A DNA stretch of 64,000 nucleotides. It comes from Angiostrongylus vasorum (taxonomy: Eukaryota; Nematoda; Chromadorea; Rhabditida; Metastrongylidae). Below the pieces are notes generated by a model, which worked only from the letters and a program-made list of their open reading frames with translations, ran no database searches and had not been told where the DNA came from. Made by a program: the position numbers and the translations under genes. Position 1 is the stretch's first letter, and every line of letters begins with the position of its first letter. The stretch covers positions 2,880,501-2,944,500 of the forward strand of contig JADANN010000174.1 in the NCBI GenBank assembly GCA_018806985.1, read 5' to 3'. This document shows, in pieces, positions 133-49,600 of this stretch.

Positions 133-168
133 GCTGACGTTTCAGCGGATTTCGCCTTTTTCAGAGCC
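133..168 (-). ncRNA. Hammerhead-ribozyme-like motif in PLE terminal repeat (decayed)
   Basis: Read on the minus strand: GGCT, then CTGAAAA (consensus CTGANGA, one substitution), a GCG/CGC stem II, then GAAACGTC and AGC closing helix I with GGCT. It is the antisense-arm copy of the PLE at 85-1787. Confidence 0.5.
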
Positions 169-539
169 TAGAAGGCTATATTGATAGGCAATTTACTAAG
201 TCAAACGCTCCGATAACACATACAAAAAGGTGAAAATGTAGATCGCAATCACACGATCAACAGCTTCCGAAAAAAACCCACCGTTTATTACGTGCCTTCC
301 GCTGAGGAAGAACAGCTGATCACAGTCGCATATGGTCGATAAATGCACCACGCCACATCAAAAGTCGATGCGAAGTTACGGGGCCAGATCACGTGTTATC
401 CCCGGGCAGTCCTCCGTGCTGTTCATTCTATGGTTCGTGGTATTTATCTAAAAAGCCTCTAGAAGTTTGCGCGTTGGTGTTTTGGCATCCTGTGCGAGGA
501 TATTGACTTTAATATTAAAATCAATGTTGAACGTGAAGC

Positions 540-1235
540 AGGAATAAATATGCATGGCTTGTCCATTCGACAGCTCATGGCTCTCTTAAAAGAGTGCCTG
601 AACTGCTCGATTTTCAAATGGTCTAGGAAATACTACACGCAATTGAGAGGGCTTTCAGTGGGACAGCGACTGGCGCCAATTCTTGCCATTGCATTTATTT
701 CTAGAAGCATTTATTTCTAGAATAGAAGCCTCCGTTATTGATCTCCGGCCGGCACTCTACTGTAGATATATAGGTGACTGTTTTTTCATATTCTCTGCTC
801 AGAAGGAGATGGACAAATGCTTTGAATTGTTGAATGAGCATTCTGAGTACATCAAATTTACCCGTGAGAAACCAAAAGAAAATTGGCTTCCATTTTTTAA
901 CGTCCAGATCAACTTATCGTACATGACAAAATGGTACCGAAAACCAAGTAACAAGAACATCCTCGTTCATTTCCTCTGCTCCCACCCTTCGCACACAAAG
1001 AGGGCGATTGAGGAAAGAGAAACATGTTTCGAACAGCCACCTCTGTGTACACGAACAGGGAACTAAAAGAGGAATCGCGCAACTTCGCTCGGCAAATAGC
1101 CATCTCCAATGGCTACGAAGTAGTAACCCCACGAGATAAGTCTGGAAGGAGAGCGACGCCCCCAAAAAGAAAAACGTGGCCAAGACAAAAACCCCGTTTA
1201 TGTTGCCCTTTATTAGCGATGAAGTAAGCGTAGCG
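540..1235 (+). pseudogene. PLE reverse transcriptase fragment (dead)
   Basis: In one frame the translation reads GLSVGQRLAPILAIAF (RT motif B of the PLE/telomerase-like RT group), and in a shifted frame RYIGDCFFIF at the position of the catalytic YxDD box, followed by EKPKENWLPFFNVQINLS and, in a third frame, RELKEESRNFARQIAISNGY. The first catalytic Asp of YxDD is replaced by Gly. Frameshifts separate the pieces. The same protein is seen in the fragment at 30500-31122. It cannot encode an active enzyme. Confidence 0.75.
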
Positions 1236-1655
1236 ATTAAACGATGCTTAAGAAGGGCAGGTCTAGAGGAATCGGTAGCGATAGTTGAAATACCATAGGA
1301 TACTCTACGTCGTCAGTTAGTTCGTAACCGACTATATGACCGTCTATGCGAAACACAAAGTTGCGTAATTTGCCCTTACGGCAAGGACGGTGACTGCATG
1401 AGTTCAGGTACGATATACCAGATCTCTTGTAATGATTGCGGAGATGAATATATCGGCGAAACGGGCAGACCTTTGTGTATCCGTATAAAAGAACACCTAG
1501 ATGGCAAACGAAAACTAAGACAAAGTACCCCACTAGGCGCGCATAGGATACACAAGCATAGCGGCGACGATTTTGGAGTAAAAGTCAATATCCTTTGTGT
1601 TATCGAAACGTTTGACTTAGTAAATTGCCTACCAATATACCCTTCCAGGCTCTGA
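1225..1655 (+). pseudogene. PLE GIY-YIG endonuclease domain
   Basis: Reads CVICPYGKDGDCMSSGTIYQ and then a Cys-rich stretch with DEYIGETGRPLCIRIKEHL, the GIY-YIG signature (TIYQ...EYIGETG...RIKEH) found at the C-terminus of Penelope-like elements, where it nicks target DNA. The domain is open from about 1350 to 1655. An in-frame stop just upstream (near 1300) separates it from the RT part. Similar remnants lie at 6950-7292 (minus) and 49512-49632 (plus). Confidence 0.8.
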
Positions 1656-1683
1656 GGAAAGCTAAATCCGCCGAAACGTCAGC
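1648..1683 (+). ncRNA. Hammerhead-ribozyme-like motif in PLE terminal repeat
   Basis: GGCT, CTGAGGA (fits CTGANGA), a weakened stem II, then GAAACGTC and AGC. Stem II is imperfect (AAGCTAAATCCGCC). Confidence 0.55.
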
Positions 1684-1822
1684 TTTAACGGAATAAAGAA
1701 TAAAGTAACACTTCGTGTTTGCTCAACAAGAATATGGAGAACTATTTGATCAGTGCCCAGGTTAACAGAAAGTCGGTCGTGGGAATTACTACTTGAGAAT
1801 AGTCTAGCCTATAGAGAATCTG

Positions 1823-2102
1823 GGTGTGGCGCAGTGGTAGGAGGAGCCCTGCAACACACATGTGGAATCAGTCCCCGCGCCCATGGCCCACCAAGCCTTC
1901 CATCCCTCCAGGGTCGCCAAATTGGTACCAGACTTGTCTAGGAAGATAGGAGCACTGGGTCGATACATCGGTAGGCCACCGCGAGTCACTGTAAAGACTA
2001 GATATGCATTCAATCACCTCCAGCGATGCTTAACGAAGTTGAGTGCATGGCGCATCCCTCAGGGGATCGATCAACGCCGAGATCTGTATCCTTTATCCTT
2101 TA
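1823..2102 (+). repeat. SINE-A copy (tRNA-derived)
   Basis: tRNA-like head with a full pol III A box (TGGCGCAGTGG), then a GTCGCCAAATTGGTACCAGA core and a tail ending with ATCCTTTATCC. One of the best copies and useful as a reference for the family. Confidence 0.8.
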
Positions 2103-2543
2103 TTGAGAATCCAGTTAGATCCCCATATCAGGTCTATGTTTGGAGTAGTTTTTGGTTAGAATCTATTATAATGGAGAGGAAGTTGGTTGTCCTGACTTCT
2201 TAAAATTCCCAATGCTGTAATGTTCAGAAGTGCGGAGAGGTTGCTGATATCAAGTGTGTAATGGCGTTATCGACTCAAATCAAGCGCGAGTCACCGGTCT
2301 GATGTTGTTGTCCTGGTCGATGCAGATACATCAATTTGTTTAAACCCTTGTCAACTCGAATTACACATCTTTTTTCGAAAAGAAAACCGAATTATCTGTG
2401 GTTTTCGTCTCTTTTCTCAAACCGAAATCTTTTTTAAAGTAGGAATATTCTATCTACAACGTGTTATTGGCGATTTGACTATCATATCGACAAAAATTCT
2501 AAGAAATTGAAAAAAAACGAAATTTAAGTGTCTATATACATGT
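2103..2543. other. No gene seen; AT-rich spacer
   Basis: No exon with splice signals and no repeat I recognise. Confidence 0.5.
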
Positions 2544-2550
2544 TTTTATG

Positions 2551-2640
<90 letters not shown>
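2544..2640. repeat. (TA)n microsatellite
   Basis: An almost pure TA dinucleotide run with two short TGTATA interruptions, directly abutting repeat C. Confidence 0.95.
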
Positions 2641-2641
<1 letters not shown>

Positions 2642-3045
2642 TTGATACTTGGTACTTAATACTTGATACTTGAACGACCCGTCTCCACTAGTTGTGCGGG
2701 CCCCAGCATAATCACCATGTTTCGGAGATTTGCTGGTTAAGCCACTGTGGTTCCCTGGAATCCCGAGGACAACCCGGCCAAAGTCTGCCCCCAGGTCGTC
2801 ACCACGCCAGGCAGTCGCAGCCCTTGTGGATCAGAGGGAGATTTGCCACCATGCTACTTTGATACCAGGACGGTGGTGGATCCTGGTATTGGTATTGGTT
2901 TACTCTTAGCTAGGCTTCCTAATGGAAACGCCGGACTCCTCAGCTTGGGAGACCCTGCCAGGGGATGAGTCCCCCGCTGTACATTGCAGTCCGACACCCA
3001 GGAACACTTCCCAGCCACGATAGAGGCGGTAAACCGTTGGGAGGA
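2641..3045 (+). repeat. Repeat family C, near full-length reference copy
   Basis: A ~400-bp interspersed repeat running from ACTTGAACGACCCGTC through GAGGGAGATTTGCCACCATG and GGATCCTGGTATTGG to GGCGGTAAACCGTTGG. Other copies: 16715, 26125, 31985, 52378, 58060, 61968. No tRNA box or ORF is evident, so the class (MITE or SINE) is open. Confidence 0.75.
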
Positions 3046-3049
3046 TATA

Positions 3050-3063
3050 GGATATATATATAC

Positions 3064-3110
<47 letters not shown>
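3050..3110. repeat. (TA)n microsatellite
   Basis: A TA run with ACATATA interruptions between repeat C and a SINE-A copy. Confidence 0.9.
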
Positions 3111-3111
<1 letters not shown>

Positions 3112-3112
3112 G

Positions 3113-3380
3113 AGCGTGTGTAGCGAAGTGGTTATATGTGCCTTGAAATATGTACTGGATTGGTCTTCAGTTCGACCTCCGCTCGGGATCATCAAACCTT
3201 TTTTTCCCATCGAGGTCGAAAAATTGTTCGAATTTCTGGGAAGATAAAAACGCTGATCTGATACATCGGTAGACCACCGAAAGTATTTTATAGGAGGGAT
3301 ATGCATTCAGTCACCGCTGCGGTGATTGATGAAGTAAGATGCATGGCATATCTTTCAGGGATCTGCGCTGAACGATTTAT
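3113..3380 (+). repeat. SINE-A copy, diverged
   Basis: Head GTGTAGCGAAGTGGTTA with a B-box-like GTTCGACCTCC; the tail matches the family end (GATACATCGGTAGACCACCG). Confidence 0.65.
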
Positions 3381-5424: not shown

Positions 5425-5668
5425 TGGATGGTGCGCCATGCATTCGACGCCATTAAGCATCGTTAGGGATGATTTAATACATATCTGGCCTATGCGATGA
5501 CTTGCTGTTGCCTGCCGATCTACCGAGTCAGTGCTGCTATGCTCTCGGACAGGCCTGGTACCAATTTGTCGACTTCTGACGGATGGAGGGGTTGGTGAAC
5601 CTAGTGCTCAGGATCGAACCATTGTGTACTGCAGGGCACCTGTAACCACTGCGCTATAGGCGCCCCCT
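5425..5668 (-). repeat. SINE-A copy
   Basis: On the minus strand: TATAGCGCAGTGGTTA (A box), then TGGTTCGATCC (good B box), the core and the AAGCATCGTTAGG tail. Confidence 0.75.
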
Positions 5669-6718: not shown

Positions 6719-6858
6719 AAATTCTTTTTCCCAGGATCGACTTTCTGTTAACCTCGTCATTGGAATATGAATGCGTCGTTTTCTTGTTCAGCAGTCGCGG
6801 GGTTGTTAAACAGCATGCATTTACTTCCATAGAAAAAACACAATGCAATACGACAGTA

Positions 6859-6893
6859 GCTGACGTTTCGGCAGTATCGCCTTCTTCAGAGCC
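6859..6893 (-). ncRNA. Hammerhead-ribozyme-like motif in PLE repeat
   Basis: Minus strand: GGCT, CTGAAGA, A, GGC-GATACT-GCC stem II, GAAACGTC, AGC. All core positions are kept. Confidence 0.65.
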
Positions 6894-6949
6894 TGGAAGG
6901 GTATACTGATATGCAATTTACTAGGCCAAATGCTTCAATAACACTTACA

Positions 6950-7292
6950 AAAAGAAAAACTCTATGGCAATTACATGATCAACAGCTTTCGCGTTGGTGT
7001 TTTAGTCTCCTGTGCAAGGATATTGACTTTTACTTCTAAACCGTCTCCGCTATGCTTTTTGTATCCCATGCGTGCCTAGTGTGGTACTTTGTCTTAGTTT
7101 TCGTTTGCCACCTAGGTGTTCTTTTTTATGCGGATACACAAAGGTCTGCCCGTTTCGCCAATATATCGATCTCCGCAACTATTACAAGAGATCTGGTATA
7201 TCGTACCTGAACTCAGGCAGTCACCGTCTTTGCCGTAAGGGCAAATTACGCAATTTGTTTCACATAGACGGTCATACAGGCGGTTACGAACT
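6950..7292 (-). pseudogene. PLE GIY-YIG domain remnant
   Basis: Minus-strand translation reads NCVICPYGKDGDCLSSGTIY followed by DRYIGETGRP, the same domain as at 1225-1655. It is cut at the 5' end by the truncation of the element and frameshifted after the IRIK motif. Confidence 0.75.
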
Positions 7293-7419
7293 AAATTCTT
7301 TTTCTTGTGTGAAGAAAAATAATACTTTTAAACTATATCCGGTTTATGTTCACACATTTACTAAAGCTATTTCAAGTCGCCAATTTTTTATTTACTTCCT
7401 AGTAATTTATAATGGCGGG

Positions 7420-7640
7420 GTACTATGTGATATAACCATAATGTCGCTGAGATATTTGCAAAACTTCGGACCGCTGGTGTCTACGGTGGGGACACGCTAT
7501 TATCCTTTCCGGGGACCAACGCATTCACCACCACACCATGCGAGTTTTTCGTTTTGCCTGTCTCACAGCCATGTTATTGACCTAGAGCGTTATCAGCAAT
7601 CCCCCATCAACGGGACGGCGTTTTCAAATAGCTCTCTGGG
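7420..7640 (-). repeat. SINE-D copy
   Basis: Minus-strand head CATGGTGTGGTGGTGAA, then the shared GTCCGAAGTTTTGCAAATAT segment. It lies downstream of the calmodulin-like gene. Confidence 0.65.
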
Positions 7641-7873: not shown

Positions 7874-10587
7874 TCATGGCATCGTCATCATTTTCACGAA
7901 TTCTTCATAGTCAATCTAAACCAACATAATTGTTCATGAGCACAGAGAGAGTACAGCTTATTCTTAGATGGTTTCTAGTTGGAAATTTCCGGCAGAGACA
8001 CAAAAGCGACATTTGCTTCTGGAAGCCTAGGTAAAAATAAGGTGCACCGGGAGTTGCTGTTAGTCTGGAAGAAACCTGGTTTAAAGACGACAAAGCTTCA
8101 GAACGAAAAAAATGGGGCGTTATGTGTTTCAAAAACATAGAAACGCCATGGAGCAATAATCTAGGGATATCACGGAGAGCAAGAAAAGAACGTTCAACCA
8201 GCAAAACACTAACATAAAGAACTGTGGTGGGTGAAGCGCGATTTGAAGAGCAGGCAGTCAACTATATCAAGTATCAAATATTATCACGGGCAGCTCGGCT
8301 GTTGCAATTTTAAGGTGCAATAAGACGTTACAGAAATAAATATAAATAAATGAAAATAAGTAAGGGAGTTGCAGTACTTTGATTCCCAATGACTGCATAA
8401 ACGTATTTGCTAACTATGGCTGGCTAGGTTTTTAATGGGTAGGCCAAGTACTATCACAGTGATGTAGTTACCTAGTTATTTTTTTATTTTGTACTTTTTT
8501 ATATGACCCGTCTTCACGTCTACCGTGCGGATCCCAGCACTTCTCACATTCGATTGGTTTTCCTCGCATTCAAGGTTCACGAAAGGTCTTTCAAGTTCTT
8601 TTTTACGTGTGGTTTCGGCTACTGCTTGAGGATTTTCATTTCATCTATCTAATTATACAATGAATAAAATGAAGTTCACGAGAACGTGTTCACTATGTGC
8701 AGGTGCTTGGCTTGGGAACACTTCTTAATACTAGATTGCTTCTGTCTGGGTTCCATATAGAATGGAATGATTCTCATTTAACGCCGCCATTATCGACGTT
8801 TTAAAACAACAGCTTCAATTGCGGTGTAATTTCAATCGACAGGGCAATGAGCGAATTCCCCCAGAGGAGTGGTATGCTTTCAACATAGTTGTCTTACTAT
8901 TTCAAAGAAGCGTTTTCTGAATTGGCTAATGCCATGAAAAAGACTGATTTCGCCACGCGGAATTTCTTTAGTAAAAGCCGTAATTGTGGTTTCTTTTTTT
9001 CTATAATACTGACTTTCCACAAGAGCTACCACGTTCTTAAGTTAGTGTTTGTTAGAATCTCAATCATGGTCACTTGGTATTCTGTTAATAATAGTGCGAA
9101 TGGTCGGTGGGTTTTCAAATGATCAGCGCAGAGAGAGGTCTTAGTGCTCGTCGAACGCGATTCCTATGACAGCAACTTCCTAACAGCTGTTCCGAGAACG
9201 AGAATAAGTTACTGTTGTTTGCATCAATTTGTGTAAACGATTACGAAGCTTACATATTTATATCGGCTACCATGTGGTATCATGAAATATAGACTGGGTA
9301 AATAGGGGGAGCATCTACTAGCGGTTGCTTATTTGGTTGCATAACTCGGTTGTGTTAGCTACCTCATGGTCGGCTAACTACGTCACTTGTCAGAAATTTT
9401 GTGGATTCCGTTTGGTATGTATCATAACAAAGCTTTTATGTTTAAATTTACCTGTCCATCTCCATCAATATCGACTTCGGCAATGATTTCGTCAACCTCC
9501 TGATCACTGAATTGCTCGCCCATGTGAGTCATGAAGTAGCGGAATTCCTCTGCCGTTATGTACCCGTTTCCATCACGATCGAACACGCGGAATGCTTCCC
9601 GGATCATTTCGCTATCATTCTCCTGGAAAGGCAGTGTTGGTTTTGTAGCTTGAGGATAATTGTGCCTAGGTTAGAGTGGGTGCATTGACATTGTCTACTA
9701 ATGTCTCCGATCGTTTGTTATTCACTGTGGTCCCTAGCTCACGCACTTTCCAATAAGTCCATAGTTTCTGTTATTCTTCCAATTTCTTTGGTATAGTACT
9801 TTCTGGCAGAGCAATCTATACCAGGATCGTAGAATGCTTCGAAAAGAGTTGGTACTGTTTATAGTTTGACTAAATATTTGATTTGTATGGATAGAAAAAA
9901 AGTTGGCGATGAAAGTGCAGTCATTAAGCAATTAGCTATACTGGATAGATATTCAGTTCGTCGGGATTGTTTTGGGGTATGGAAGCTCATGCGCGTAATT
10001 ACATTTCAAGCCAGCTAAAAGATAATTTCCTTAGAATATTCAGCCCAACCTTATTCATTCTCTTCATCATTTGGCAAAATTCAGGGAAGTCAATGGTGCC
10101 GCTGCCGTCAATGTCTACCTCGTTTACCATATCAAGAAGTTCCTGCTCTGTAGGATTTTGTCCAAGAGACCTCATAGCGACGCCCAATTCCTTAGAAGAG
10201 ATAGAGCCGTTTCCGTCCTGAAATTCATTCAACGTAACACAACAAGTTGACCATGCTTGCAAATCCCTTAAGTATTTCCACGAGTTCTGAACAGTGACGG
10301 AAGAACTTGTCTTCAGTTTTCTTTGACTACTAATAAATGAACTAACACGAGACAGGATAGTACGCTGATTTATGTTAGCCGCTATAAAAATCACGCGCAA
10401 GAGCTGTTTATCGCTTTGTGGATCAATTAACTCCTCGGGACCGTGAGCTAACCTTGTCAAATAGTCGAAATGCTTCCTTGTATTCGATCAGTTCTTCTTC
10501 GTTGATTCCTTCCAGTCCGGTGGGTACATCTGTTTGTTTCTGCTGCCATCGATTAAATAGGGAAATACGCCTTGGATCTGACGACAT
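7874..10587 (-). CDS. Calmodulin-family EF-hand protein, complete, 4 exons
   Basis: Coding exons on the minus strand: 10453-10587, 10050-10217, 9452-9622 and 7874-7915. All introns are GT-AG and phase 0; the protein has 171 aa. Four canonical 12-residue Ca-binding loops: residues 44-55 ([12 protein letters not shown]), 80-91 ([12 protein letters not shown]), 116-127 ([12 protein letters not shown]) and 152-163 (DIDGDGQIDYEE), each with Asp at positions 1 and 3 and Glu at 12. Calmodulin is about 149 aa; here a ~24-aa N-terminal extension precedes the first helix and the C-terminus is FVKMMTMP. It most resembles the nematode CAL calmodulin-like group rather than calmodulin itself; which member is not certain. 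An ATTGCAG acceptor lies 10 bases before the ATG (10598-10604), fitting a trans-splice site. Introns fall inside EF loops 1 and 4 and in the central linker. Role: cytosolic calcium sensor binding targets (family knowledge). Confidence 0.92.
8508..8650 (-). repeat. SINE-B fragment inside an intron of the calmodulin-like gene
   Basis: Matches the 3' half of SINE-B (CCGTCTTCACGTCTACCGTG ... TTGAGGATTTTCATTTCATC). It lies in the 1.5-kb third intron. Confidence 0.7.
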
Positions 10588-10596
10588 ATCGGATTT

Positions 10597-10639: not shown

Positions 10640-13330
10640 TCATTCTATGTTTAATTAACAAGAGAAGAACGACGATAAGCTACAAGAAGAAGATCAAAAA
10701 TGGTGAGCACGAATCTCAAGTGCCTCAATGAAAAATTACTCTATGGCTCGATTTCCTGTGGAACCTCCATGCCCTCTAAAAACATTTCCTCTAGTTCATG
10801 CAGCTACTCTCTCATAGCAACGAGGCAGCATGGCTGTATTTGAAATAACATTTTTTATCCTTCTATTTAATCATTTATTTGGTTACGCTCAGCGTAGGCA
10901 GCAAAAAATCGTACTGATTTCTCTAATTGAATTAGAAGTTAACAGACGATATCATTATTCGCCACGAAAAAGAGTCTCAGATCGAGAATAAGATGATGCC
11001 AGCTGACAATTAAAAAGTGGTTCGTAGGTTGCCTTCCTATAGAAACTACGAATCCTGAAAATGGGGGGACAGACGGTGTACTGCGAGGCAACGTCTGAGG
11101 AAAGACGAGCGGCTTGCAAGGGTGCGAACCATGGGACCCGTCTCGCGAGGCACCGCCCCAATGTCGATGAAGCACAACTGGCGCTACTCGTAGAGAAAGT
11201 GATTCTTTTGCGCCAATCATGAGAAACATGGATTTATGTGCCCGCCTAGTTCATTTTCACGCAAATGCCGAGTTATTCTATACTGAAACGTGTTACATAT
11301 ATTTTTTTAAATGATTGAAATACATTGAAATACTAATGTTCATTAATACGTAGGTGCCATGGTGTGGTGAGTATCGACGCGCAATTTATGCATAAATTTT
11401 CTAGAGTTATTTGGTTCGATTTACTGTAGTCATGATTTCTTGACGGAGGACGAGACAGGTGGCAGAATTTGTGAAGCAAACTATAATATTCAAGTAATGT
11501 TGGCCTTTCACTGCTTATGTTTATGCGGCGTATTTGCCACTTCTACTGGAACGTTTTCATTAGTAGTCTTCTTAAAGGGGGTAAAGAGTAGATGGACGCG
11601 CACAATATGGTGTCTTTTCACAAACGAATGAGCACTTGTTCTAGCGCTCATTTCACTAGTCTGGACAGTAGTGGGCTGTGGACCCACATGACAGCTACCA
11701 TATTCACGATCGTGCGACGATGTCTCGTCAAATGTCTAATCTGCTGAAATTCAATTCCATCGTAGTCGTTTTGTTTTTTAGAGTTCGTACATTTTGGCAA
11801 GTGACTGAGTTCACTTAGTTTTATACGTTGCTGGTCTGTGTTCATGATTCATGTAATCCCGAACTCACTTTCCATTTGAATGGTTGGTTAGGGTTTTCCA
11901 TAAAGTCCTGTAATACCTGTACAAGGGCGTTTCAAAGACGTCCGTCACCATAAGTTGCTCAACATTGTGTATCGGAAGGAGATTCGCCATCTTATGTTTG
12001 GGTTTCATTCAGATCTGTCAAAGCTGAACTTCCATATGGAAATGTCGAACTCTTTGGCTTCAGTTATTTCCCCATGGAAATGGACCTTCTGTTAGATTGC
12101 AGTTTGACACTCATGAACACTCCTTCACCACAACGGAGAGATAAACATTCAGGAAAATTATTAAGCCGCCAAAATCTAGAACACTCCGAGAAAGTGCATG
12201 TTCTACCTAAACATTTTCGTTTAAAAGATTTTATTTAGAAGCACCGCGTTTGAAGTGCTGATTTATTTTCACTTGGGCAAATAAGTGGTATGTGCGATTG
12301 GTATTACTTCAAAATTATTATTGACGTTTTAAAAAATTAAGCCGTAAAATAGGGTTAGTTACGCTTTGTTACAAATATTTCAAAGACTAGGCAGAAAGAC
12401 TAAAAGTTCACATCTCTGTCGGGAATTGTGGGAGCTGTCGTATTGACATGTGCATAAATGTCGAAAACAACCTCCCCATGTCTCCAAACACTTGTCATCC
12501 ACGATTTTAGGCATGTACTCTTTTTTACGAGAAAGAAGAATAAATGCTGGGATTTTTCCCGGAAAGCGATCAAAGATTTTAGCGTTGTTGTAATCATATG
12601 GTTTCTTGACGAATTGTGACATTTTCAGTTGCAAAGCACTTTGTTCACATTCATCGCTGCTGTTTTCCAGGCCTTTTCGCTAATTTGGTAAGTGTTTTTC
12701 AGTACTTAATTGTATTAAAACAAATGAATTGTCTCTATAATTGATTGTGATGGTGGATTGTTATAAGTTGTAAGTTAATTCGAGATGGCAAACGTTTGCC
12801 CGAAATCCCCAGAAGTAACGAATTTTGCACGACCAATACTGGGTCTGACAAGGTAGGCCCTATCAACAACAACACTAGAAATTGACGTTGAACTAATTAG
12901 CTGAGTACTCTTGGCTATGACGTAGTGCAACCGAGACCATAGGGGGTGTGACTGACTCAGTGTAGTTGGCTTCGATGTAATACAATCAAAAACGTAGGAC
13001 CTTGTGACGCACAACTGCGCCGTAGAGCTGGAGACTAGAAATTGGCTGCGTACCAGTTCGCCATTCACTGGATTAATAAGAGTTTTCTACATAAGAAAGG
13101 AGCCGAAATTTGTCTATGCTCTAAATGTATGATACTTCAGCAAAATAGAAGGCTTGCACATAGTCGACGAAGTGTTCTATAAAATTTTGTGAAATTCGTT
13201 CTCCTTTGGCGTTTTAATTTGACTTGAAAGTATTCGTGTAGTGCATACCTACGTTCGGACAGCTGAAATCACAGCGAAATTTCGTTTATTGACGAACATG
13301 GTCTATTAGTTGAAACTGTTCGGATTTATG
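10640..13330. other. No gene recognised
   Basis: Upstream of the calmodulin-like gene. Open frames at 10939-11229, 12380-12634 and 12775-13068 (all minus) have no family resemblance and no convincing splice partners. Promoter elements cannot be identified by eye. Confidence 0.4.
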
Positions 13331-13335
13331 CGCAC

Positions 13336-13590
13336 TGGAACACACACATGGGATCGATCCCATCATCTTAGACTCACCAAGCCTTCCATCCCTCCATGGT
13401 CGGCAAATGGGTACCAGACTTGTTTGGGAGGATAGCAGCACTAGCTCGATACATCGGCAGGCCACCGCGAGTCATTGTAAAGGCCAGATATGCATTCAGT
13501 CACCTCCAACGATGCTTAATGAAGTCGAATGCATGGCGCATCCCTTCAGGGATTGATCAACACCAAGAGCTTTATCCTTTACTCTATATG
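13336..13590 (+). repeat. SINE-A copy, head truncated
   Basis: Begins in the head (CACATGGGATCGATCCC) and keeps the core (GGTACCAGACTTGTTTGGGA) and tail. Confidence 0.75.
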
Positions 13591-14224: not shown

Positions 14225-14412
14225 CTAGTAATGAAAGCTTTCTGCGTTGATGAATCCACGAAGGATGCGCCGTGCATTCGACTTCAGTAAGCATCGTTAG
14301 AGGTGATTCAATGCGTATCTGGCCTATATATTCATTCTTGTTCAGCAATCGCGAGGTTGTTAAACAGTATACATTTGCTTCCATAGAAAAAACACAATAC
14401 AATACAACAGTA

Positions 14413-14447
14413 GCTGACGTTTCGGCGGTATCGTCTTCTTCGGAGCC
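14413..14447 (-). ncRNA. Hammerhead-ribozyme-like motif (one core change)
   Basis: Minus strand: GGCT, CCGAAGA (consensus CTGANGA), stem II, GAAACGTC, AGC. Confidence 0.5.
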
Positions 14448-14725
14448 TGGAGGGATATGCTGGTATACAATTTACTGGGCCAAATGCTTCAATAACACTT
14501 ACAAAAAGGCCAAAAAGCAATTTCTGATGTGGGATGGTGCAGTCCTCAACCTTATGCGACTATAATCAGCTGTTCTAATCTTCCTCATTGGAGAGCACGT
14601 AAAAAAGCCGTGGGTTTTTTTCGAGAAGCTGTTGACTGTGTAATTACCATAGAGTTTTTCGTCTTTTTTTGTAAGTGTTATTGAAGCGTTAGGCCTAGTA
14701 AATTGTATGTCAGTATACCCTTCCA

Positions 14726-14760
14726 GGCTCTGAATAAGGCGATACTGCCGAGACGTCAGC
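14726..14760 (+). ncRNA. Hammerhead-ribozyme-like motif (decayed)
   Basis: GGCT, CTGAATA, AGGCGATACTGCC, GAGACGTC, AGC: two core substitutions (G8 and one A of GAAA). Confidence 0.4.
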
Positions 14761-15284
14761 TACTGTTGTATTGTATTGTGTTTTTCTATGGAAGTAAATG
14801 TATGCTGTTTAACAACCTCGCGATTGCTGAACAAGAAAACGACGCATTCATATTCCAATGCCGAGGTTAATAGAAAGTCTATCTTGGGAACTATATATTC
14901 ATTTCCGGTGGCCTACTGATGTATTACGTTAGTGCTGCTATCTTCGAATACAAGCTTGTTACCAATATGCGGACCCCAAATCGATGCAGAGTGAGCTCCC
15001 GACACGCGTGGTCGAGCAAGCGACCACCTGTTTGTTTCAGCGCACCGCTGACCACTGCGCTACACGACCCCAAAATAGTGACATATTTCAAGAAGGTGAT
15101 TATCTTTCCATTAAGCTAGAATTCACAAACTATTCTTAATACTGTGCACTATTTAGGGACAGTGGTCAACATCCTGGCAATCTAAGTAGTAACTAAGTTT
15201 TGATGTTTTTTAAACATCGGGTTATTCGAGTCCTTCATAAATCCCGAAGTGTAACTAAGTATTCACTGAAGTGTAATTACATAT

Positions 15285-19702: not shown

Positions 19703-19941
19703 ATTCGTTGGCTGACTTTCGGCGATTTTGCTTTCCTCAAAGCCGTGATATTGCGAGTGGAAGTTGGAGTCCCACTTCAGAATGTCCATTTTCTATTATA
19801 TTATCAAGTTTATTCTGCTCAAATCTCAGCGTCGCTGTGGTTGTGTTTTCTGTTTTAGTTTAGCCGTCTTGGTGCACTCTTCGTCAGTCTTGCTTTTGCA
19901 ATGTCTATTTTTGGCTCATATTAAAGTTAATTATTGTGATC

Positions 19942-20307: not shown

Positions 20308-21077
20308 GATTTTAATAATTTAAGTGACCAATTCCTAGTTTGGCTCACTTCTTATAATGAATTCTCTAAGGCATAAGGTTTTGAATAGTGGCTTCATATT
20401 TAAACAAAGACTCACATTCGAAGTTTCTATTGCTTCTACTCCTTACTGACACCGTCCGCTACAGGAACGCTAATCATTTTGCGGTCGATTGTCGTCGATA
20501 TTTCAGGTTTGTGCTCTCGTATGTACCAGGCGGTGAGCGAGGGCTTCGTTTTATGTCCAGCTTATGTGCTGGATTTCTTAGAAAATCTCCGACTACGGTA
20601 CTTCCGATCTAAAGCCCCCAGTTGCTCATGAGCATCTGTGAATCTAAGAGACGGCGGCACAGTCGGCTTATTAACACATCCCAGTTATATATTTTAACTT
20701 ATAAAATTTGTATTATTTGTATTATTTCTCGTTGAATTTGTTGGATTGATTTTTTAGCCATCTGCTGTATAGATTTGATTATACTTTGATTTGACCACTG
20801 CAACGATGACTACAGCTTTTCATCTGTCGACCATATCGAGTAGAAAACACTGCTTTCTGAATTGTTTTTTACTCGCAAGATTTGTATCTTTCAAACATAT
20901 CATTGATTTCGATGTAATTTATGAAGTTTGCCTACTCACTGATAGCCTGCTTGGTGTTGTAATCTGGTTCTGGATTGTGATGAAAACATGGGTCCTTCCC
21001 TTGCATAAACGTTTTATATTGCCTCCTTTTTTCTCGGGAAGGGTCACAGCCAAAAATAAAAGAAAACACGTAGGAAT
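20308..21077. other. No gene recognised
   Basis: Open frames 20388-20612 and 20791-21180 (plus) have no family resemblance; the second runs into the PLE repeat at 21078. Confidence 0.4.
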
Positions 21078-21182
21078 TCCCAAGACCGACTTTCTGTTAA
21101 CCTCGGCATTGATTGATAATTCGGTGTTTACCTTCAATAAGCAGACACGAGGTTGTTATTATAAATTTATTAGGATATAATA

Positions 21183-21219
21183 GCTGACGCTTTCGGCGGT
21201 TTCGCTTTCTTCAGAGCCT
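21183..21219 (-). ncRNA. Hammerhead-ribozyme-like motif with insertion
   Basis: Minus strand: GGCT, CTGAAGA, AAGCGAAACCGCC, then GAAAGCGTC (one extra base against GAAACGTC), AGC. Confidence 0.5.
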
Positions 21220-21445
21220 GGAAAGGTCAAGTTGAGATGGGATCTACTCAGTCAAACACTTTCATAATACTAGCAGATAAAAAATAACAAATAAATCAAC
21301 TAACTGAAATACTTATAACAAATAAACGGTAGGTGTTTAAATGAAGCTGTTTCTTATGCGAATACAAATTTATTTGTTATTTTTTATCTGCTGGGGTTAT
21401 GAAAGTGTTTGGCTGAGTAGATCGCATCTCAATTTCACCTTTCCA

Positions 21446-21480
21446 GGCTCTGAAGAAGGCGGAACCGCCGAAACGTCAGC
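21446..21480 (+). ncRNA. Hammerhead-ribozyme-like motif, consensus copy
   Basis: GGCT, CTGAAGA, A, stem GGCG-GAAC-CGCC with four perfect pairs, GAAACGTC, AGC. All core bases and stem II are intact. Helix III is reduced to ACGT, which is self-complementary and suits dimeric action. Confidence 0.7.
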
Positions 21481-21539
21481 TGTTGTATCCTAATAAATCG
21501 GTAATAACAACCTCGTGTCTGCTTATTGAAGGAAAACAT

Positions 21540-22569
21540 CGAATTAAAAAAGTTTTATTCTGTACTAAGGTTAGTTCTCTACGCTCTCCATAGAGAAATG
21601 AGAAGGTTGTAGACAGCACTGGTTAGTTCTGCACAAATTTTCGTTGGAAAGAGACCAAGACTGTCCACTTTCCAAGCATATGCCCACGGGCGAATGTGAC
21701 ATGTGGAGTATTGAAGCGGCGTGAACATGGGCCTCATGGGAGTGCACGTTGCACGGAGTGTCCGCGAAATATGCCAGTGGTACTATATGGCCATATCGTG
21801 TTACCTTTTCTTTGCAGAAATACGATTTGGGGGTTTAAGCGATTGGAATAAATCATATAAAATTCATTTACTAAGATGGTCTTAGGAAATCACATCAAAC
21901 GTTCCCCATATCTCGGATGATTTGAATCATTCGCTTCATCTATTTTCCTAATTTTTTTTCCACCGTATACCATGGAATGGCAAAAAAGCATGTGGTATAT
22001 ATTGGATGTTTAATGAATAAATTGACGAAGCGGGTGGATTACTTTTGCCCGCATGAGAGAGCACCTAGAAAGGGAGCTTCAAATGCTACAAAGTACAACT
22101 CTAGGTTGGCATAGAAAAACAAAGATAAAACGGTGATGACTTTGGAGCAGCAAATCCGATACTCGCGCATGAATCAAAAGCATCCACGTGCAAGACCTTC
22201 GAGATGTTTTCGATAAATTTCAAAAAGCCTAAAAATCAAGGATTCCAGTGCTCGGCGCTGACTTGTCGCCTTAGATTATTTTGATTATTTTCTGCACGGC
22301 ATAAGTTTCATTTTCATCATTTTATGTGGTGAACATGCGAGTGGTCACACTCTTCAGGAAACGGGAAACGTTTTTTTTAGCAAACTGGAGCTGATTTATA
22401 AATTCGATCTTTATTGAGACAAGTAGTAGGATGGAAAACGACTGCATAACGACAGTTATAGGCTCCGAAACAATAGCCACCGAACATCAGGACACAGGGA
22501 GAAATCCCACGTAATCCCCCTCAAAGAAGGTCCTTAGAATGATAAGTTGATAACGAATAAAAAAAAGAC
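21540..22569. other. No gene recognised
   Basis: No exon with splice context and no listed repeat. Confidence 0.4.
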
Positions 22570-25621: not shown

Positions 25622-25905
25622 AGGAGCGCGTGTAGCGCAGTGGTTGGAAACTTCCTGCAATACACATGGGATCGATCCCAGTGCCGCAGACGCAGCAAGC
25701 TCTCCATGCCTCCGAGATCAGGAAATTGGTAGAAGGTTTGTCTGGGAAAATAGCAGCACTGGATGGATACATCGGGATGCCACCGCGAATAATTGTAAAG
25801 GCCAGATATACCTTTAGTCTTTCTCAACGATGCTTCACGAAGTTGAATGCATGGCCCATCCCTCAGGGTTTGATCAACACCGGGAGCTCTATCCTTTTAT
25901 TTAAT
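25622..25905 (+). repeat. SINE-A copy
   Basis: GCGCGTGTAGCGCAGTGGTT head, GGGATCGATCCCAG, core, ATCCTTTTATTTA tail. Confidence 0.8.
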
Positions 25906-26124
25906 TGTCGACTGTGAAGTTGGTTTGCTTCGTTTCCAGCTTGGCGATCTGGTAACTTCTCTGTGCTCTATTCAATTCTGATCGTACGTAAAATTCCGTG
26001 TGATCTCGAAATAGTTGTTGTTGAGCTTTCTCATGTGCAGATACCGGCCTTGCGATCAGAAGAAAAGTTTGTTCCCTTGTGAGTCAGATTGTCCTCATTA
26101 CTCCTATAACGGCACCATTTCTTA

Positions 26125-30499: not shown

Positions 30500-31122
30500 T
30501 CACTCTTCAGATTGTCCGAGAAGTGATTCGTACAAATGAAAAGGGTGGAAGCGAAAGAGCGACTGGCATCAAGCCTTGACATTGCAGTCATGTCTAAAGT
30601 TGAAGCTCCCGTAGTCGGTCTTTGGGCAGCACTCTACCTTAGGTATATCGACAGCCGTTTTCTTGTTTGCTCAACACAAGAAGACACGAAGAAATGTTTT
30701 CAGTTGTCAAATCTACAGTCAATACGTAAATTCCACCCAGGAGAAACCGAAAAAAGATTGACATGTTTGAGCTTTCACACTAACCTTTCCAAACACGGCT
30801 ACATCAACAAATCGTATTGAGACCAAGGCAACAAAAACATGATGGTCCATTACCTCTCCTCTCACTCTTCATACACGAAAAGGGCAAAGGAAGAGAGCTG
30901 AATGAGGAATCTCTAAACATGGGGAGGCAATCAGCCATTTTCTGAGATTGCGAAGCAAAGGAAGCGGGTTATTGGTTTAGAGGAAAAACAATGCCTCTAA
31001 ATTACAAGTCTGAAGAAAACAAGGTCACATTATTGCTGCCCTTCATTTCTAATCAAATAAACATGCGATAAAGCCTAGAGAAGTCGGCAGCAGATATAGT
31101 TGACAAACTAAAATTGTACCTT
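30500..31122 (+). mobile_element. Penelope-like element fragment (RT part)
   Basis: Reads as the same RT as at 540-1235: PVVGLWAALYLRYIDSRFLV, where the YxDD box is YIDS (second Asp lost), then frameshifted NKNMMVHYLSS-type and SNQINMR pieces. No terminal repeats are visible. Dead. Confidence 0.75.
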
Positions 31123-34602: not shown

Positions 34603-34619
34603 TTAAAGCTAAAAAAAGT

Positions 34620-34895
34620 TAAAGCTCTCGGCGTTGATCAATCCCCTGAGGTATGTGACATGCATTCAGCTTCATTGAGCATCGTTGGAGGTGATTGAAT
34701 GGATATTTGGTCTTTACAATGACTTGCGACGACCTGCCGATGTATTGAGCCAGTGCTGCTATCTTCTCAGACAAGTCTGGTTCTAATTTGCGGATCCCGG
34801 AGGGATGGAAGGCTTGGCAAGCAACGGGCACGGGGATCGATTCCATGTAGGTATTGCAGGGCTCCTCCGACCACTGCGTCACACGCGCCACTTGT
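34620..34895 (-). repeat. SINE-A copy between two TA arrays
   Basis: Minus strand: GGCGCGTGTGACGCAGTGGT head, core with AATTAGAACCAGACTTGTCT, tail next to the TA array. Confidence 0.8.
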
Positions 34896-35452: not shown

Positions 35453-36057
35453 AACCCCCCACGTCCGACTTTCTATTAACCTCGGCATTGATCAAGTAAT
35501 TCTTCGTATTCTTGTTGAGCAAACACGAGGTGTTATTTTTTATTCTTTATACACGAACAAGCTGACGTTTCGGCGGATTTCGCCTTCCTCAGAGCCTGGA
35601 AAGGTCAAGTTGACAGCAATCTATTCGGCCAAACACCTCCATAACCAAACAGAGAAAACGCTGAACCAAGATTTCAATCATATTGAACACAGCTTTGCAC
35701 ACTCACCGCTTTCTATGAGGCTTCCACTGAGTATGTCGCGTGGAGACCAACCGCACAGAATCCACATGGAAGCGTAATATGCCTCTCCCATCAAAATAAC
35801 AGCCTTTTATACTGCTCAATATCACGCGTGATAATGAGGCATTCTTCCTTGCGGTTCGTTTTCGGATTTCTGGAATTAATCCAGAACGCCTCGAGAGTTT
35901 TGCGCGCTTGTGTTCTCGATTCCTGTGCGAGGATCGTGACACGTACTTCAAAGTCCTCCCCACTATGTCTCTGGGTCCTATGCGTGCCTAGTGAGGTATT
36001 TGGTTTACGTTTGCCGACTAGGTGTTCTTTTATGCGGACACAGAGGGGTCTGCCGTT
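35453..36057 (-). mobile_element. 5'-truncated Penelope-like element with 10-bp target-site duplication
   Basis: Tail (CGTCCGACTTTCTATTAACC) and terminal repeat at the left, then the end of the GIY-YIG frame (RPLCVRIKEHLVGKRKPN and EVRVTILAQESRTQA on the minus strand); truncated at 36057 within the GETGRP motif. Flanked by TCCCTGGAGT at 35443-35452 and 36058-36067. The body is clearly different from the 85-1787 copy, so it is a second PLE subfamily. Confidence 0.85.
35561..35596 (-). ncRNA. Hammerhead-ribozyme-like motif, consensus copy
   Basis: Minus strand: GGCT, CTGAGGA, A, GGCG-AAATC-CGCC, GAAACGTC, AGC; core and stem II intact. Confidence 0.7.
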
Positions 36058-43600: not shown

Positions 43601-46600
43601 GAGAACAGATTTTTGAGTAGCTGTGAACCATTACTTTTTCTTTATCTTGGTTTCAGTTCTCGATCACCGGCAGGCATTTTTCTGGAAACTGCGATTTCAG
43701 TTTCATTTCATCCTGACTTCACAACTGCTGACGATCGTATATTCCATTTACGATGTTTCCATCAGCGAGCGACAAACGGTAAAGTTCAAGGACCCGGAAG
43801 TCCCACAGATCCACCACGAGGTTTGTAAAGACCGTTTTTTCTAACCTGGATCAAGACGATCGGGCAGCGGTGTTAATTGGTCTATGTTGTCTTTCTTGCT
43901 GGCTAGTACAAGGAGACGGAAAAGAATGACAACCACAGCGTCGTTTAAGAGTTGAATAATCTCGGCCTCTAATTTCCCTAGGCATTAGGTTTTCACCGTT
44001 GGCTTAAATGGTTTGAATATATATCGACATTTTTCTTCATCAAAAATCTCATTTTCAATCTTTAAACGATTTTCATTATTTCATAGATAGACGTCTGTTG
44101 AAAAAAATACAACTGCCTTGATTAGATAGACGTAAAAATCTCGGAAAATTTCTCCACTTTTCAGAGCCGCTACACTTAGGGCCACGTAGTGCTGTGCGAC
44201 CCGACATTTCCTTTCCCTCCCTTGATCCCCACCAGGGCACACGCCCACTTCATCACTAATGCGTACCCTTTGCGACGGACATAGAGCATTAGGCTGAGGA
44301 TGGATTGGCTCCAGTAGGTTTTCCCATGATGGATCACGGATGCAACGATGACACACCATCAGACATATTCAGGTTCTGTTTCTTACGAAGCTTCCTCTTG
44401 CCCTTTTGTGAGTATGCAAATCGAAACAAAACCAGAAGAATTAAAAACTTGCAAAATCCATCAGAATCAAGTTGAAGTATCCGTGGAAATTCACTGTTCT
44501 CCTTCAGTGAGCAAAAAACGAGGTTGGTATTATACACTCATTGGCAAACAGTACCTGACGTTTCGGCGGTTTCCCTTTCTTCAGAGCCTGGAAAGATCAG
44601 CTTGACATGCAATCTACCCAGCCAAACACTTTCATAACCTTAGTAAGTAAGACTTAGCACATAAGTTTGCATTCGCTTAATAAACAGCTAAAATTTATCC
44701 GTGGAAAGCAGCTACGTTAACTAAAGTTACTTAGTAAACTAGTTAGGTATCGATCACCTAGAAGAAGAAGCTCGTATTGTGAGAAGAGCATTTCCAACTA
44801 GTTCTGATGATTGGTGGGCACCTTGTTCGCCACTTAGACACCGTTCATCATTGGAACGTTTCCTATACACATAAAAATACTCGATAATTGAGCTCGTGTT
44901 TTCACTAAGTGCTTAGGAGTTCCGAAGCCGCCATTAGTTCAACTCCGCGCATTTGATGAACTTTCAAAAAAGGCTTCTAAAAATATTAGTTCAGAGGAAA
45001 AAAAATACTTGATGTTGCGTACTAATCTTTTATAGCTATAAAGGATAGACCTCTCGGCGTTGATCAATCACTGAGGTATGGGCCATGCATTCTACTTCAT
45101 CAAGCACCGTTTGGAGGTCATCGAATGCATATCTGACCTTTACAATGAATCGCGGTGGCCTACCGATGCATCGAGCCAGTGCTGCTATCCTCCCAGACAA
45201 GTCTGGTACCAATCTGTCGACCCCGGAGGGTTGGAAGGCTTGGTGGGCCATGGGCGCAGCCATCGATTCCACTTCTTGTGTGCTGCAGGGCGCTTCAGCC
45301 CACTGCGCCACACGCGATCATCTATAGCTATAGAAAACAAATTCAGTATACATTTTGATGCAGTGAAACAGAGAAAGAGATGATTAATGCAGATCATTCA
45401 ACACCTTCTGTATATCGTAATAAAAGGCAAAGGGGATTTTTTAAAATGCTCTCCTTATAGAAGTTTTCGACAGGAAGTAGTAGGTCGATTTGAAGTACTG
45501 TCTATTTTGAACATAATTTCTAGTGAAAACTAGCTGAGAGACAGGCAAAAAAAAAGGACCCGCATGGTGTCGTGGTGAACGCGTAACTCCCCGGAAAGGG
45601 TAACAGCGCGTTCCTTCCGCACCGCAGACACCTGCAGTCCGGAGTTTTACGAGTATCTCAGCATCATCGTGGTTGTATTTCACACTATACCGTGGCGTGA
45701 AAAATTATAGTAGGCAGCAAATAGAAAGTTAGCATTTTGACAACTTTTAGTATTGCTAATTTTCAATCTAAAAGATTTGTAATAAAGGAACCTCTGCATA
45801 GTCTCCTTTCAATTTGGGTTTTTTTTTGCTATCAACGTTAGATAACCTTCTTTTTTAGATGCTATGCGAACGCCTTCCTGTTCTTACACCGTGCGTAAGC
45901 GGCCGAACGGTCCCCTTGCGGGAACAGTTGTGCTCGGTCAAGTAGTCTTTCATCAGTGGAGTTGCGAAAATCAACAGGCATTTCTTTCTTTTCGCACAGG
46001 TGGAACTCTTGGGGATAGTTCTTTTTCAGGACACGTGCTTAATCGTCCACAGCTGCTCCGTGGTCGGCGGCGAGACGAAACACGAACTGATGGACGAGGA
46101 CGGGTGCTCGAAAAACACAAAAATTCTCCCAAATCTCGTCTACTTGAATCCGGTCGGTTTCCCTTTGTTCTCGATCTCGATGCTCTCGTTTTTTCTCACT
46201 GGCCGGCGTCCCAATTCTCTAGTCCGATGTTTTGTGCGTTTCACATCAAGTGGTGCACGTTAATGACTGAAGAGCCTAAACGAAATCAGAACCAGTTTCG
46301 ATGTAAAAGAGATGGAAATTGTCATGCTCGTTAATGTGGGAATTGATGAATGGAATTAAAAAGCAAAAAGTTACCTCAGCCCTTCGAACCTAAACATATC
46401 TATGAATATCCGTCATAAAATCGCTCTTAACGACTCAAAAAAAGCACATGTGCTCGTAAACGAGGGCTTAGAATGACGCATAAAGTAAACGAACTTTCAG
46501 TCGTGCATTCTATGTATTAACAAATGCGTTGCTTCACTTGAAGGTGATTGAAGAAAGAAAATACGGGACCTCGTGGATTCGTCGAAAGTAGTCAGCATTA

Positions 46601-49600
46601 AAGGAGAAAATGTTTGCTGCAAAGAAATTCCTTCTTGGGAAAGAAACTAGCTAGGGTAAAATTTCGTTAAAGCTCTGAAAGGCATACCACATGAAAACTG
46701 AACACCTATTTCGATTCATGGAATGCGTTAAGATACGTCGCAATCGGGTGTTCTCGTTTGGAGCGTGTAGTAGCGCACTCCTAAGCATTTAGTGGCTATT
46801 TGACAACCGTGAGACTTTCATGAGACGAATTTCATGCGACTGAGATATTTGATAATGCAGACATTCGGCTATTAGCATAAGAATATGGGACCGAATGGGA
46901 TTATAGCAAAAAGCAGAACAGTGCTTTGGTAAAAAAAGCAGTCATCTAGAAGGCTCACAATTAACGCTGGAACTAACCACATGTTAAGGAATCACCCTAT
47001 TAGCATGAGGTAAGCGGGTGTTGCACAGCTAAACAACACCACATTTCTTCTGGTGCTCGTCGGTTTGAACAGCATAGCAACGCCGTGCTTATCCATCCCT
47101 CGAAGCATAACCAATTAATAATGCAGACTGGTTTTCCATGTCGCATAACTCCTTTCAATCACTGCAGCGATGATTTTTTGCTCAGATTAATGAGGAATGT
47201 TGAAGTGTAAGCTCTATGAGATTGCTCGATTTTGTGAATTTAATCCGTTCTCTCTGTTCGACAATGTCGCCGAAATTGGATGCGCCGGACCGGAACTGGC
47301 GCTGTGCCACGCGTGACATTAACGAGATACCATTTCATCTGACTTTTTTAAAATGGCAGGATTCAAAAACAAAACTAGAAACACTGAGTGCTCGAGATCT
47401 TTCACATGCAGGAATTATGCAAACGAGTGACTTTTGTGGTAGTGATCCAAGAAAATATAGATGATCTCCATGGAAACGCAGTTAGGGAAATTCTCATTGT
47501 TAGTTTGATAATGGCTAAGTAAGCGAGTGTAGCGCAGTAGTTAGAGCTCCCCCGCAATACACAGATGTCCGTAAGCTTGGATCGGCACCCAGGCCTAGCC
47601 CTACCTTCCATCGCTCCAGAATCGACAAATTGATAGCAGCATTTTCGGGAATAGTAGAAAAATGACTTAATACAACGATCAGCCTACGCTGAACAAGTCA
47701 AATACGCATTAACCCAGATCAAAGATGTTTACTAGAGTCGGAAGCTTCGCAATGAGACTTAGCAGTGCTGAACCTCCTATCATTCGTACTTTAGTTTCAT
47801 GAGAACAGGGTATTGCGTTGTATTAATTTTTATGTCTATAAGTGTTTACTCATCTATTATTTTACCTTTTTCTGTTTTATTTTAATTTATTTTATATTAC
47901 CCGTCTTCACGTCTACCATGCGGTTCCCAGCACTTCTCACATTCGATTCGTTTCCTCGCATCCACTGCGCACGAAGACCTTTCATCCTTTACGTGTGGCT
48001 TCGCTTGCTGCTTGAGGATTTTCATCTCATCTTGAGTGTCATAGAATGCTGCTCGAGCAATTTTCCCTAGAGTACTGAGATAGCCGGGCTGAAGCGTCCC
48101 CAATTGACTTGCAGAGAGTGATCTTTTTTTCCCAGACAAGCCCGGTACTAATTTCCCGACAACAGAGGGAAGAGAAGCTTGGTTGGCCCGGAGTGGAGGA
48201 ATAGAAATAGCACCATGCTCGTGATAACGGACACCATTACCACTGTGCCATCAGCCCCCTATTTACATTTACTGCAAGTAAGTACCTGTTATTTTTTATC
48301 ACAATGGAATTAAGCGTTCTAATCGAGCACGAACTCCTTGCCCATTACCTCATGGTACATTACAAATGTCGTGATCAAAGTGAACATGGTATTCCCAACA
48401 TTTTAGTCATTGGTCGGTCAGAATGTGAGCGTATTCGGAGTGCCGCAGACGTCTCTCATCTACTTTGAATGTACCTTACTTTTGATTCCGAATACTGACG
48501 GATTTTGCAAGGGTCCGGAATGTCTAGAGGATTCCTCTTCACTAAATCGGACGAGGTAAATTGATCCTTCAAGATTTTTTTTATTATTTATAAATGTTCA
48601 GCATTTAGAAGAAGCTTCGAGGCTTATAAGGACATATCTGTAGAAGTGCATTCTCAGCGAATCGAGGTGTCAGAGCTTGGTGAATTTCCTATTGAATTTC
48701 ATTTCGTTCCATTTCGAGATTGCTGTAACCTCCAGCCTTAACAATCGTACATCCAGGAAGAATGTCGAATGATGACAGTGATGGCACGAAACCTATAGAG
48801 CTTACTTGCCACGAAACATCCTCCCTATCCGATAATCGGATCTGCGTATCGTTCAATCCGTTTATCAGCTTTCTAGCCGGCCTCACCTCGGTAATTGTTC
48901 AAAGAATATTGTCTTTTTTTGTTCAAAAGTAAAGTTACGAATATAATCATAATGGTTCCCAGGATCGACTTTCTATTAACCTCGGCATTGGAATATGAAT
49001 GCATCGTTTTCTTGTTCAGCAATCGCGAGGTTGTTAAACAGCATACATTTACTTCCATAGAAAAACACAATACAATACAACAGTAGCTGACGTTTCGGCA
49101 GTATCGCCTTCTTCAGAGCCTGGAAGGGTATACTGACATACAATTTACTAGGCCAAACGCTTCAATGACACTTACAAAAAGACGAAAAACTCTATGGTAA
49201 TTACATGGTCAACAGCTTCTCGAAAAAAACTCACCGCTTTTTTTACGTGCCTTCCCATGAGGAAGATTAGAACAGCTGATTATGGTCGCATAAGGTTGAT
49301 GACTGCACCATCCCACATCAGAAATTGATGCGAACATACGGGGTCAGGTCGCGTATGACCTCTGGGCATTCATCCCTGCTATTCATTGTAGGGTTTTAGG
49401 CATTTATCCAAAAAGCCTCAAGAAGTTTTCGCGCTGGTGTTCTAGTCTCCTGCACAAGGATATTGACGTTTACTTCAAAATTGTCCCCGCTGTGCTTTTG
49501 TATCCTATGCGTAATCTGCCCTTACGGCAGGGACGGTGATTGTATGAGTTCAGGTACGATATACCTGATCTCTTGTAATAATTGCGGAGATGAATATATT

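Follow-up and report, generated by a model that had tools for sequence, protein, structure and literature searches.

Hammerhead-like units beside a leader intron in Penelope-like elements of Angiostrongylus vasorum

Minimal hammerhead ribozymes have been described in Penelope-like elements (PLEs) and Terminons (Cervera and de la Pena 2014; Lunse et al. 2017, as summarized in the accessible parts of PMC7761336, PMC6155905, PMC7229834 and PMC10085705), and the available text of a 2020 review calls their role in vivo "still a mystery" (PMC7761336). The window analyzed here is a 64,000-nucleotide stretch of a 279.9-Mb assembly. This genome contains thousands of copies from at least seven lineages and gives three ways into the question of what PLE hammerheads do: the core carries a fixed extra nucleotide, helix I contains a splice junction, and the footprints of insertion favor an uncut template. 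These features make definite models of PLE RNA processing testable, and the footprints extend an in vitro report on PAc, an Anolis PLE, to natural insertions.

As far as the accessible descriptions go, the present units share with PLE and Terminon hammerheads their place in the pseudo-LTR (pLTR), the type I order, a reduced or missing helix III, and tandem units for which action as dimers has been proposed. They differ from those descriptions, although the described elements may share either feature, in having an extra A ahead of stem II in every lineage examined and in being placed on a 3' splice junction. The available part of the PAc report states that hammerhead mutants still insert, that no RNA-seq ends fall at the cut, and that the hammerhead cleaves only with protein (PMC11167929). 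Common to PAc and our elements are a unit near the ORF start, an apparently uncut RNA as the insertion substrate, and reverse transcription starting about 110-118 nt into the ORF, which gives the tail (PMC11167929). The PAc ORF starts in stem II, whereas here it starts about 70-100 nt past the predicted cut and an intron precedes the unit.

Three further systems share some features, according to the parts of their descriptions available. The plus hammerhead of the viroid CChMVd carries one extra A (A10) between A9 and G10.1, with moderately lowered trans-cleavage, but it serves rolling-circle replication rather than a PLE (PMC3705267); hammerhead alignments also include insertions of 1 or 2 nt beside CUGANGA (PMC10085705). 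Penelope elements of Adineta vaga have a pLTR with the first ORF residues, an optional ~31-bp tail on one arm, head-to-head inverted arms and retained introns, and their description names no hammerhead in its accessible part (PMC3846280). Newt and salamander satellite hammerheads have a weak palindromic helix III and act poorly as monomers and efficiently as dimers (PMC6155905, PMC7229834), but they show loop-loop contacts between helices I and II and lie in 330-350 bp tandem repeats that lack a PLE ORF. Within the accessible literature, the extra nucleotide is known from a viroid, and no report was found of the splice-junction placement.

From sequence comparison, we read the units as probable minimal type I PLE hammerhead ribozymes with a fixed A between A9 and stem II, placed at the 5' edge of exon 2 in the pLTR, and we assign this reading a probability of about 0.62. 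Beyond the original prediction, which was made from the window sequence, the analysis adds an eleventh copy, an intron whose 3' splice site abuts the motif, and a sign that uncut RNA is inserted.

Units in the window and their carrier element

The original prediction listed ten hammerhead-like units in PLE terminal repeats, all in the same orientation relative to the tail. Each is present where it was placed (Table 1), with the motif 5' of the tail side in 10 of 10 cases; six have a full tail and four a shortened one. Using blastn of one copy against the window, we found an eleventh, decayed copy with an AC-rich linker and a similar far tail.

Table 1. Features of the hammerhead-bearing elements, in window coordinates
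Feature	Positions	Strand	Remarks
Hammerhead-like unit, lineage I	133..168	-	G8 -> A, shortened tail
Putative GT-AG leader intron, 114 nt, 5' site GTGGGT	168..281	-	Ends at first G of unit 133-168
PLE reverse transcriptase fragment	647..1066	+	150 scored genome matches; relatives in RT-GIY-YIG frames; itself without Pfam match
PLE GIY-YIG endonuclease fragment	1299..1594	+	Pfam E=8e-4, below cut-off
Hammerhead-like unit, lineage I	1648..1683	+	Core letters intact, stem II damaged
Linker and full tail of 1648 copy	1684..1790	+	
Linker and full tail of 6859 copy	6728..6858	-	
Hammerhead-like unit, lineage II	6859..6893	-	Core and stems intact
GIY-YIG fragment of 6859 copy	7016..7303	-	
Hammerhead-like unit, lineage II	14413..14447	-	U4 -> C, shortened tail; left arm of head-to-head pair with 14726
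Hammerhead-like unit, lineage II	14726..14760	+	G8 and one GAAA base changed; right arm of pair with 14413
Linker and full tail of 14726 copy	14761..14893	+	
Hammerhead-like unit, lineage V, decayed	19711..19744	-	AC-rich linker; upstream context that of a spliced copy
Linker and full tail of 21183 copy	21077..21182	-	
Hammerhead-like unit, lineage III	21183..21218	-	Extra G in helix III; left arm of head-to-head pair with 21446
Hammerhead-like unit, lineage III	21446..21480	+	Core and stems intact, shortened tail; right arm of pair with 21183
Linker and full tail of 35561 copy	35458..35560	-	
Hammerhead-like unit, lineage IV	35561..35596	-	Core and stems intact
Leader intron, 111 nt, GTGAGT...TTTCCAG	35596..35706	-	Ends at first G of unit 35561-35596
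GIY-YIG fragment of 35561 copy	35929..36054	-	
Hammerhead-like unit, lineage III	44554..44588	-	Core letters intact, stems damaged, shortened tail
Linker and full tail of 49086 copy	48956..49085	-	
Hammerhead-like unit, lineage II	49086..49120	-	Core and stems intact
Leader intron, 115 nt, GTGAGT...CTTCCAG	49120..49234	-	Ends at first G of unit 49086-49120

The units have the minimal hammerhead anatomy that had been claimed for them, and it is of type I in core order, in helices I and II, and in the open ends of helix I. Positions are numbered (e.g., A9, C17 and 10.2-11.2) by the hammerhead convention. Helix I pairs GGCU with AGCU or AGCC, and its 5' strand is followed by CUGANGA, one extra A, a 4-bp stem II (e.g., GGCG with CGCC) with a loop of 4-5 nt, GAAA, ACGU and C17. 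The predicted cut lies after GUC (C17) and before AGC. CUGA, GA, GAAA and the U-C at the cut are conserved, and N7 and loop II vary. Because ACGU is its own complement, helix III is possible only between two units. This self-complementary element, also part of the prediction, occurs in 9 of 11 window copies; the unit at 21183 has one more G and that at 19711 lacks the C.

The extra A had been flagged as an oddity and proves to be present in all 11 window copies, such that stem II never directly follows CUGANGA there, as it usually, though not necessarily, does in hammerheads. When stem II is fixed as GGCG with YGCC, 5527 exact genome copies have the extra base and 23 lack it. Six of the about 100 matches listed carry a base other than A at this position, and lineage VI has three such units among the matches listed.

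The whole motif layout is far beyond chance in the window. CTGANGA by itself is mildly enriched (51 occurrences versus 34.6 expected, with 2 of 100 shuffles reaching 51). A strict descriptor, consisting of a 4-bp helix I, the full core, 0-1 extra nt and a 4-bp stem II, is passed by 4 of 11 copies (6859, 21446, 35561 and 49086), whereas in 100 first-order Markov simulations of the window it found an average of 0.05 sites when helix III could have any length and none when the helix III span was limited to <=6 nt. The copies at 21446 and 35561 had been singled out as keeping every core base; both are indeed intact, but they are not alone, since those at 6859 and 49086 also keep core and stems. 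Core letters are intact in 6 of 11 copies overall, counting those at 1648 and 44554, whose stems are damaged. An informal reading of a column table of the copies gave no sign, beyond decay, of the "natural mutant series" that had been proposed, and on their sequences the defects look like neutral decay of dead insertions.

As predicted, the carrier is a PLE; it has reverse transcriptase (RT) and GIY-YIG domains. The frame at 1299-1655 matches GIY-YIG weakly (Table 1) and has 62 relatives at E<=1e-3; the named ones come from strongylid nematodes, and the nearest are from Angiostrongylus cantonensis and Parelaphostrongylus, which by itself would point to a strongylid as the probable host. Elsewhere in the genome, one open frame (locus L010:5057-6028) combines RVT_1 (E=2e-5) with GIY-YIG (E=0.0045), both below the Pfam cut-offs. 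At L010, a tandem locus, two intact units of the same orientation mark the boundaries on either side of a broken ORF and are spaced 3026 bp apart. RT matches with the same spacing and direction occur in C316 (3034 bp) and C115 (3036 bp). The elements have the pLTR, the tandem or inverted units and the optional tail including the ORF start that mark PLEs. In lineage II, the tail ends about 132 nt past the cut (about +73 to +92 in the short form) and includes the next ORF start, which in L010 is MPRLIESRSWELL, 100 nt past the cut. A collection of viral contigs contained neither matches to the motif pattern (0) nor PLE relatives, and a collection of genome contigs gave one chance match, to a Clostridia contig that lacks the motif.

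The frame at 1299-1655 suggested that the UGA of the CUGANGA core might be the stop codon of the PLE ORF. We rejected this reading because an internal deletion at 1595/1596 fuses the GIY-YIG frame to the terminal repeat and because the protein ends further upstream in other copies and in the nematode relatives. A more distant PLE reverse transcriptase fragment lies at 30584-30895 (+) and is 42% identical to 647-1066.

Conservation and pairing across lineages

The pattern CTGANGAN{8,20}GAAACGTC has 9194 exact matches in the genome, compared to 30 for a reversed-pattern control. Copy number proves nothing by itself, and 7 of 11 window copies fail the strict descriptor; both points would suit a chance hammerhead look-alike spread by repeat copying without any function. 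Since copies share everything by descent, the relevant test is whether the unit survived in lineages that have since diverged. We grouped the copies by linker and loop into lineages I, II, IIb, III, IV, V and VI. Among the ten copies originally listed (four families), between-family identity is 0.867 for the unit, 0.652 for the 60 nt upstream and 0.234 for the linker, and among the six copies with a full tail it is 0.702 for the tail. When each of the seven lineages is represented by one real copy, identity is 0.90 for the unit, 0.55 upstream and 0.48 downstream, against shuffled baselines of 0.48, 0.46 and 0.45, respectively. The unit is thus kept better than the rest of the repeat across lineages, the opposite of what would have counted against the original prediction.

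Pairing was assessed in 36 hand-picked units of 72 distinct ones. In these, 93.1% of cells are paired, and 10 cells are changed on both sides, compared to 3.3 in shuffles (0 of 500 reach 10); slid controls give at most 55.6% paired and 4 double-changed cells. Counted by pair rather than by cell, double changes (4 in the 36 units) are not beyond the shuffles, 79 of 500 of which reach that number. Lineage VI has A-U for G-C at 10.2-11.2 in 521 exact genome copies (control 0). Helices I and II show compensatory changes. A chance look-alike would not be expected to have covarying stems, nor a 90% identical unit between flanks that, in seven lineages, lie near the shuffled baseline. Because of the pairing test and the seven-lineage identities, we consider this explanation refuted in substance and extremely improbable. 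On these comparisons, the motif looks conserved for a function. A second compensated pair, U-A for C-G at 10.3-11.3 (GGTG with CACC or CACT), was seen in L045 at 609 (-) and 2999 (+).

A covariance-model search had been proposed as a check of the prediction, and it did not bear it out: the Rfam hammerhead models have no match in the window, either at the gathering threshold or at E<=10. Searches of five loci that carry intact copies, and of a 71-base stretch surrounding each of two intact ones, were likewise negative. These negatives are hard to weigh because the searches were run without a known PLE hammerhead as a positive control. Nearest-neighbor folding gives the double-hammerhead dimer -13 to -21 kcal/mol, whereas other dimers reach -19 to -30 kcal/mol and are more stable; in the monomer, the hammerhead fold at best ties a rival hairpin that pairs CUGA with UCAG. 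We give these energies little weight because such models do not capture the hammerhead core.

Leader intron, insertion ends and possible function

A GT-AG intron of ~115 nt precedes the unit in copies of lineages II, III, IV and V. Exon 1 ends in ...AAAGCG, ...AAAACG or ...CATCACG, the intron then opens with GTGAGT, and its 3' end is CTTTCCAG, CCTTCCAG or CGTCCAG, followed by GCUCUGANGA. Intron length is 106-133 nt in 42 of 45 copies examined, and the remaining three lengths (30, 151 and 180) are probably due to 5' sites that are altered or wrongly assigned. Of the 11 window copies, 3 retain a recognizable 5' splice site. Exon 1 is joined exactly to GCUCUGA in L007, L015 (one arm), L017 (both arms), L094 and L098, and in the lineage V copies L003 and L086. 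Genome-wide, CCAG precedes GCTCTGANGA in 4365 exact copies (control 0), the intron-side context, and AGCG precedes it in 531 (control 0), the exact exon junction. The latter number excludes spliced lineage V, which has a different exon 1, and a small number of spliced masters may have given rise to some of these copies. Inserted copies represent both spliced and unspliced RNAs. Five lineage VI copies examined (L046, L058, L089 and L090 twice) show no intron.

Introns in PLEs are already known from the accessible account in PMC3846280. For a hammerhead on a splice junction, we found no report among the matches listed in the literature searched, which mostly lies outside subscription journals; a paper matched by the search refers to splice sites in connection with backsplicing.

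The splice junction falls one base into helix I, and because intron and exon 1 both end in G, the helix I letters are unchanged by splicing. This geometry raises the possibility of a switch in which folding or cutting of the unit competes with the 3' splice site and sets the ratio of spliced, unspliced and cut RNA. The position of the junction, the identity of the unit letters before and after splicing, and the insertion of both RNA forms are in keeping with such a switch; however, adjacency is not regulation, and the lineage VI copies examined show no intron. We regard it as improbable. A broader proposal, in which a self-cleaving ribozyme built onto the 3' splice junction makes folding and cutting compete with leader-intron splicing and so decides between spliced mRNA, cut message and uncut inserted RNA, is somewhat less improbable and would still be doubtful.

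Insertion ends bear on whether cut RNA is the template. According to the available part of PMC11167929, the tail, which lies downstream of the 3' unit, is where PLE reverse transcription begins; RNA cut at that unit would thus be without its start site. If RNA cut at the 5' unit were inserted at full length, the insertion would be expected to begin at AGCU. We compared 30 lineage-II loci, including L057, the place of the reference copy. In 24 of these the 5' break lies inside the compared stretch, and the other six run on beyond -734. Twelve of the 24 breaks are upstream of the unit, the copy reading through the 5' unit, two are inside and 10 are downstream, although some may be inversion junctions rather than insertion ends. 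None of the 24 falls at the predicted cut; the nearest lie at +10 and -22 (+7 in a neighboring inverted arm). Genome-wide lineage-II pattern counts (1614, 1475 and 1300) give a per-base loss of 0.978 across the cut and 0.979 beside it, with a deficit of 9 +/- 14 among 1614 copies. Neither break positions nor pattern counts support cut RNA as the insertion template. The absence of any clustering of insertion 5' ends at the site of predicted cutting suggests that the inserted copies derive from RNA that had not been cut, in agreement with the PAc findings in the accessible part of PMC11167929.

Four of the 24 breaks (L049, L061, L065 and L076) lie within 5 nt of one another, +62 to +66 past the cut. 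This cluster sits just after AACCTCG, which could pair with CGAGGTT in the tail, and perhaps marks a preferred RT stop or RNA start.

The lack of a cutting footprint among insertion 5' ends, the Rfam negatives and the dimer energies all count against the hammerhead ribozyme reading. The main rival is a fold that derives from a hammerhead and no longer cuts, being kept as an exon-2 leader element or as a binding site for the RT-endonuclease or the splicing machinery, with the core letters serving as part of the fold. The absent footprint, the absence of Rfam hammerhead matches, the extra nucleotide in the core and the adjoining 3' splice site all fit this alternative. Against it, conservation falls on the letters required for catalysis, with N7 and loop II left variable, and PAc has the same kind of unit, which cuts with protein according to the available part of PMC11167929. 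We judge a non-cutting fold unlikely, if less so than any form of competition with splicing.

If the units are ribozymes, as we favor, a lone ACGU could not close helix III, and two units would pair ACGU with ACGU. The resulting double hammerhead would cut after GUC, perhaps aided by a PLE protein, and tandem transcripts would be cut into unit messages. Such a cut would remove the cap, exon 1 and any intron, leaving about 70-100 nt of leader ahead of the ORF, and a cut at the 3' unit would also remove the tail where reverse transcription starts. Cut RNA would then be message or be lost, and uncut RNA would be the insertion template.

Inverted pairs and other repeats

Head-to-head inverted pairs with tails outward occur in the window at 1-1790, 14335-14893 and 21077-21546; one arm has a full tail and the other is about 35-55 nt shorter. 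The matches listed genome-wide include 18 pairs of spliced units separated by <200 bp, and every one of these pairs is in (-,+) order. At L017, both arms of the pair have a private C at the extra position, as if they came from one RNA, and the L015 pair is mixed, with one arm spliced and the other unspliced. The 49086 copy (48955-49625) continues into an opposite-direction 5' part at 49508-49625, an arrangement that resembles a twin-priming inversion. The window also contains an EF-hand (calmodulin-like) coding exon at 9999-10487 (-) and a further dispersed repeat family on both strands, with copies at 1824-2103, 13310-13589, 25628-25907, 34614-34884 and 63758-63902, among others.
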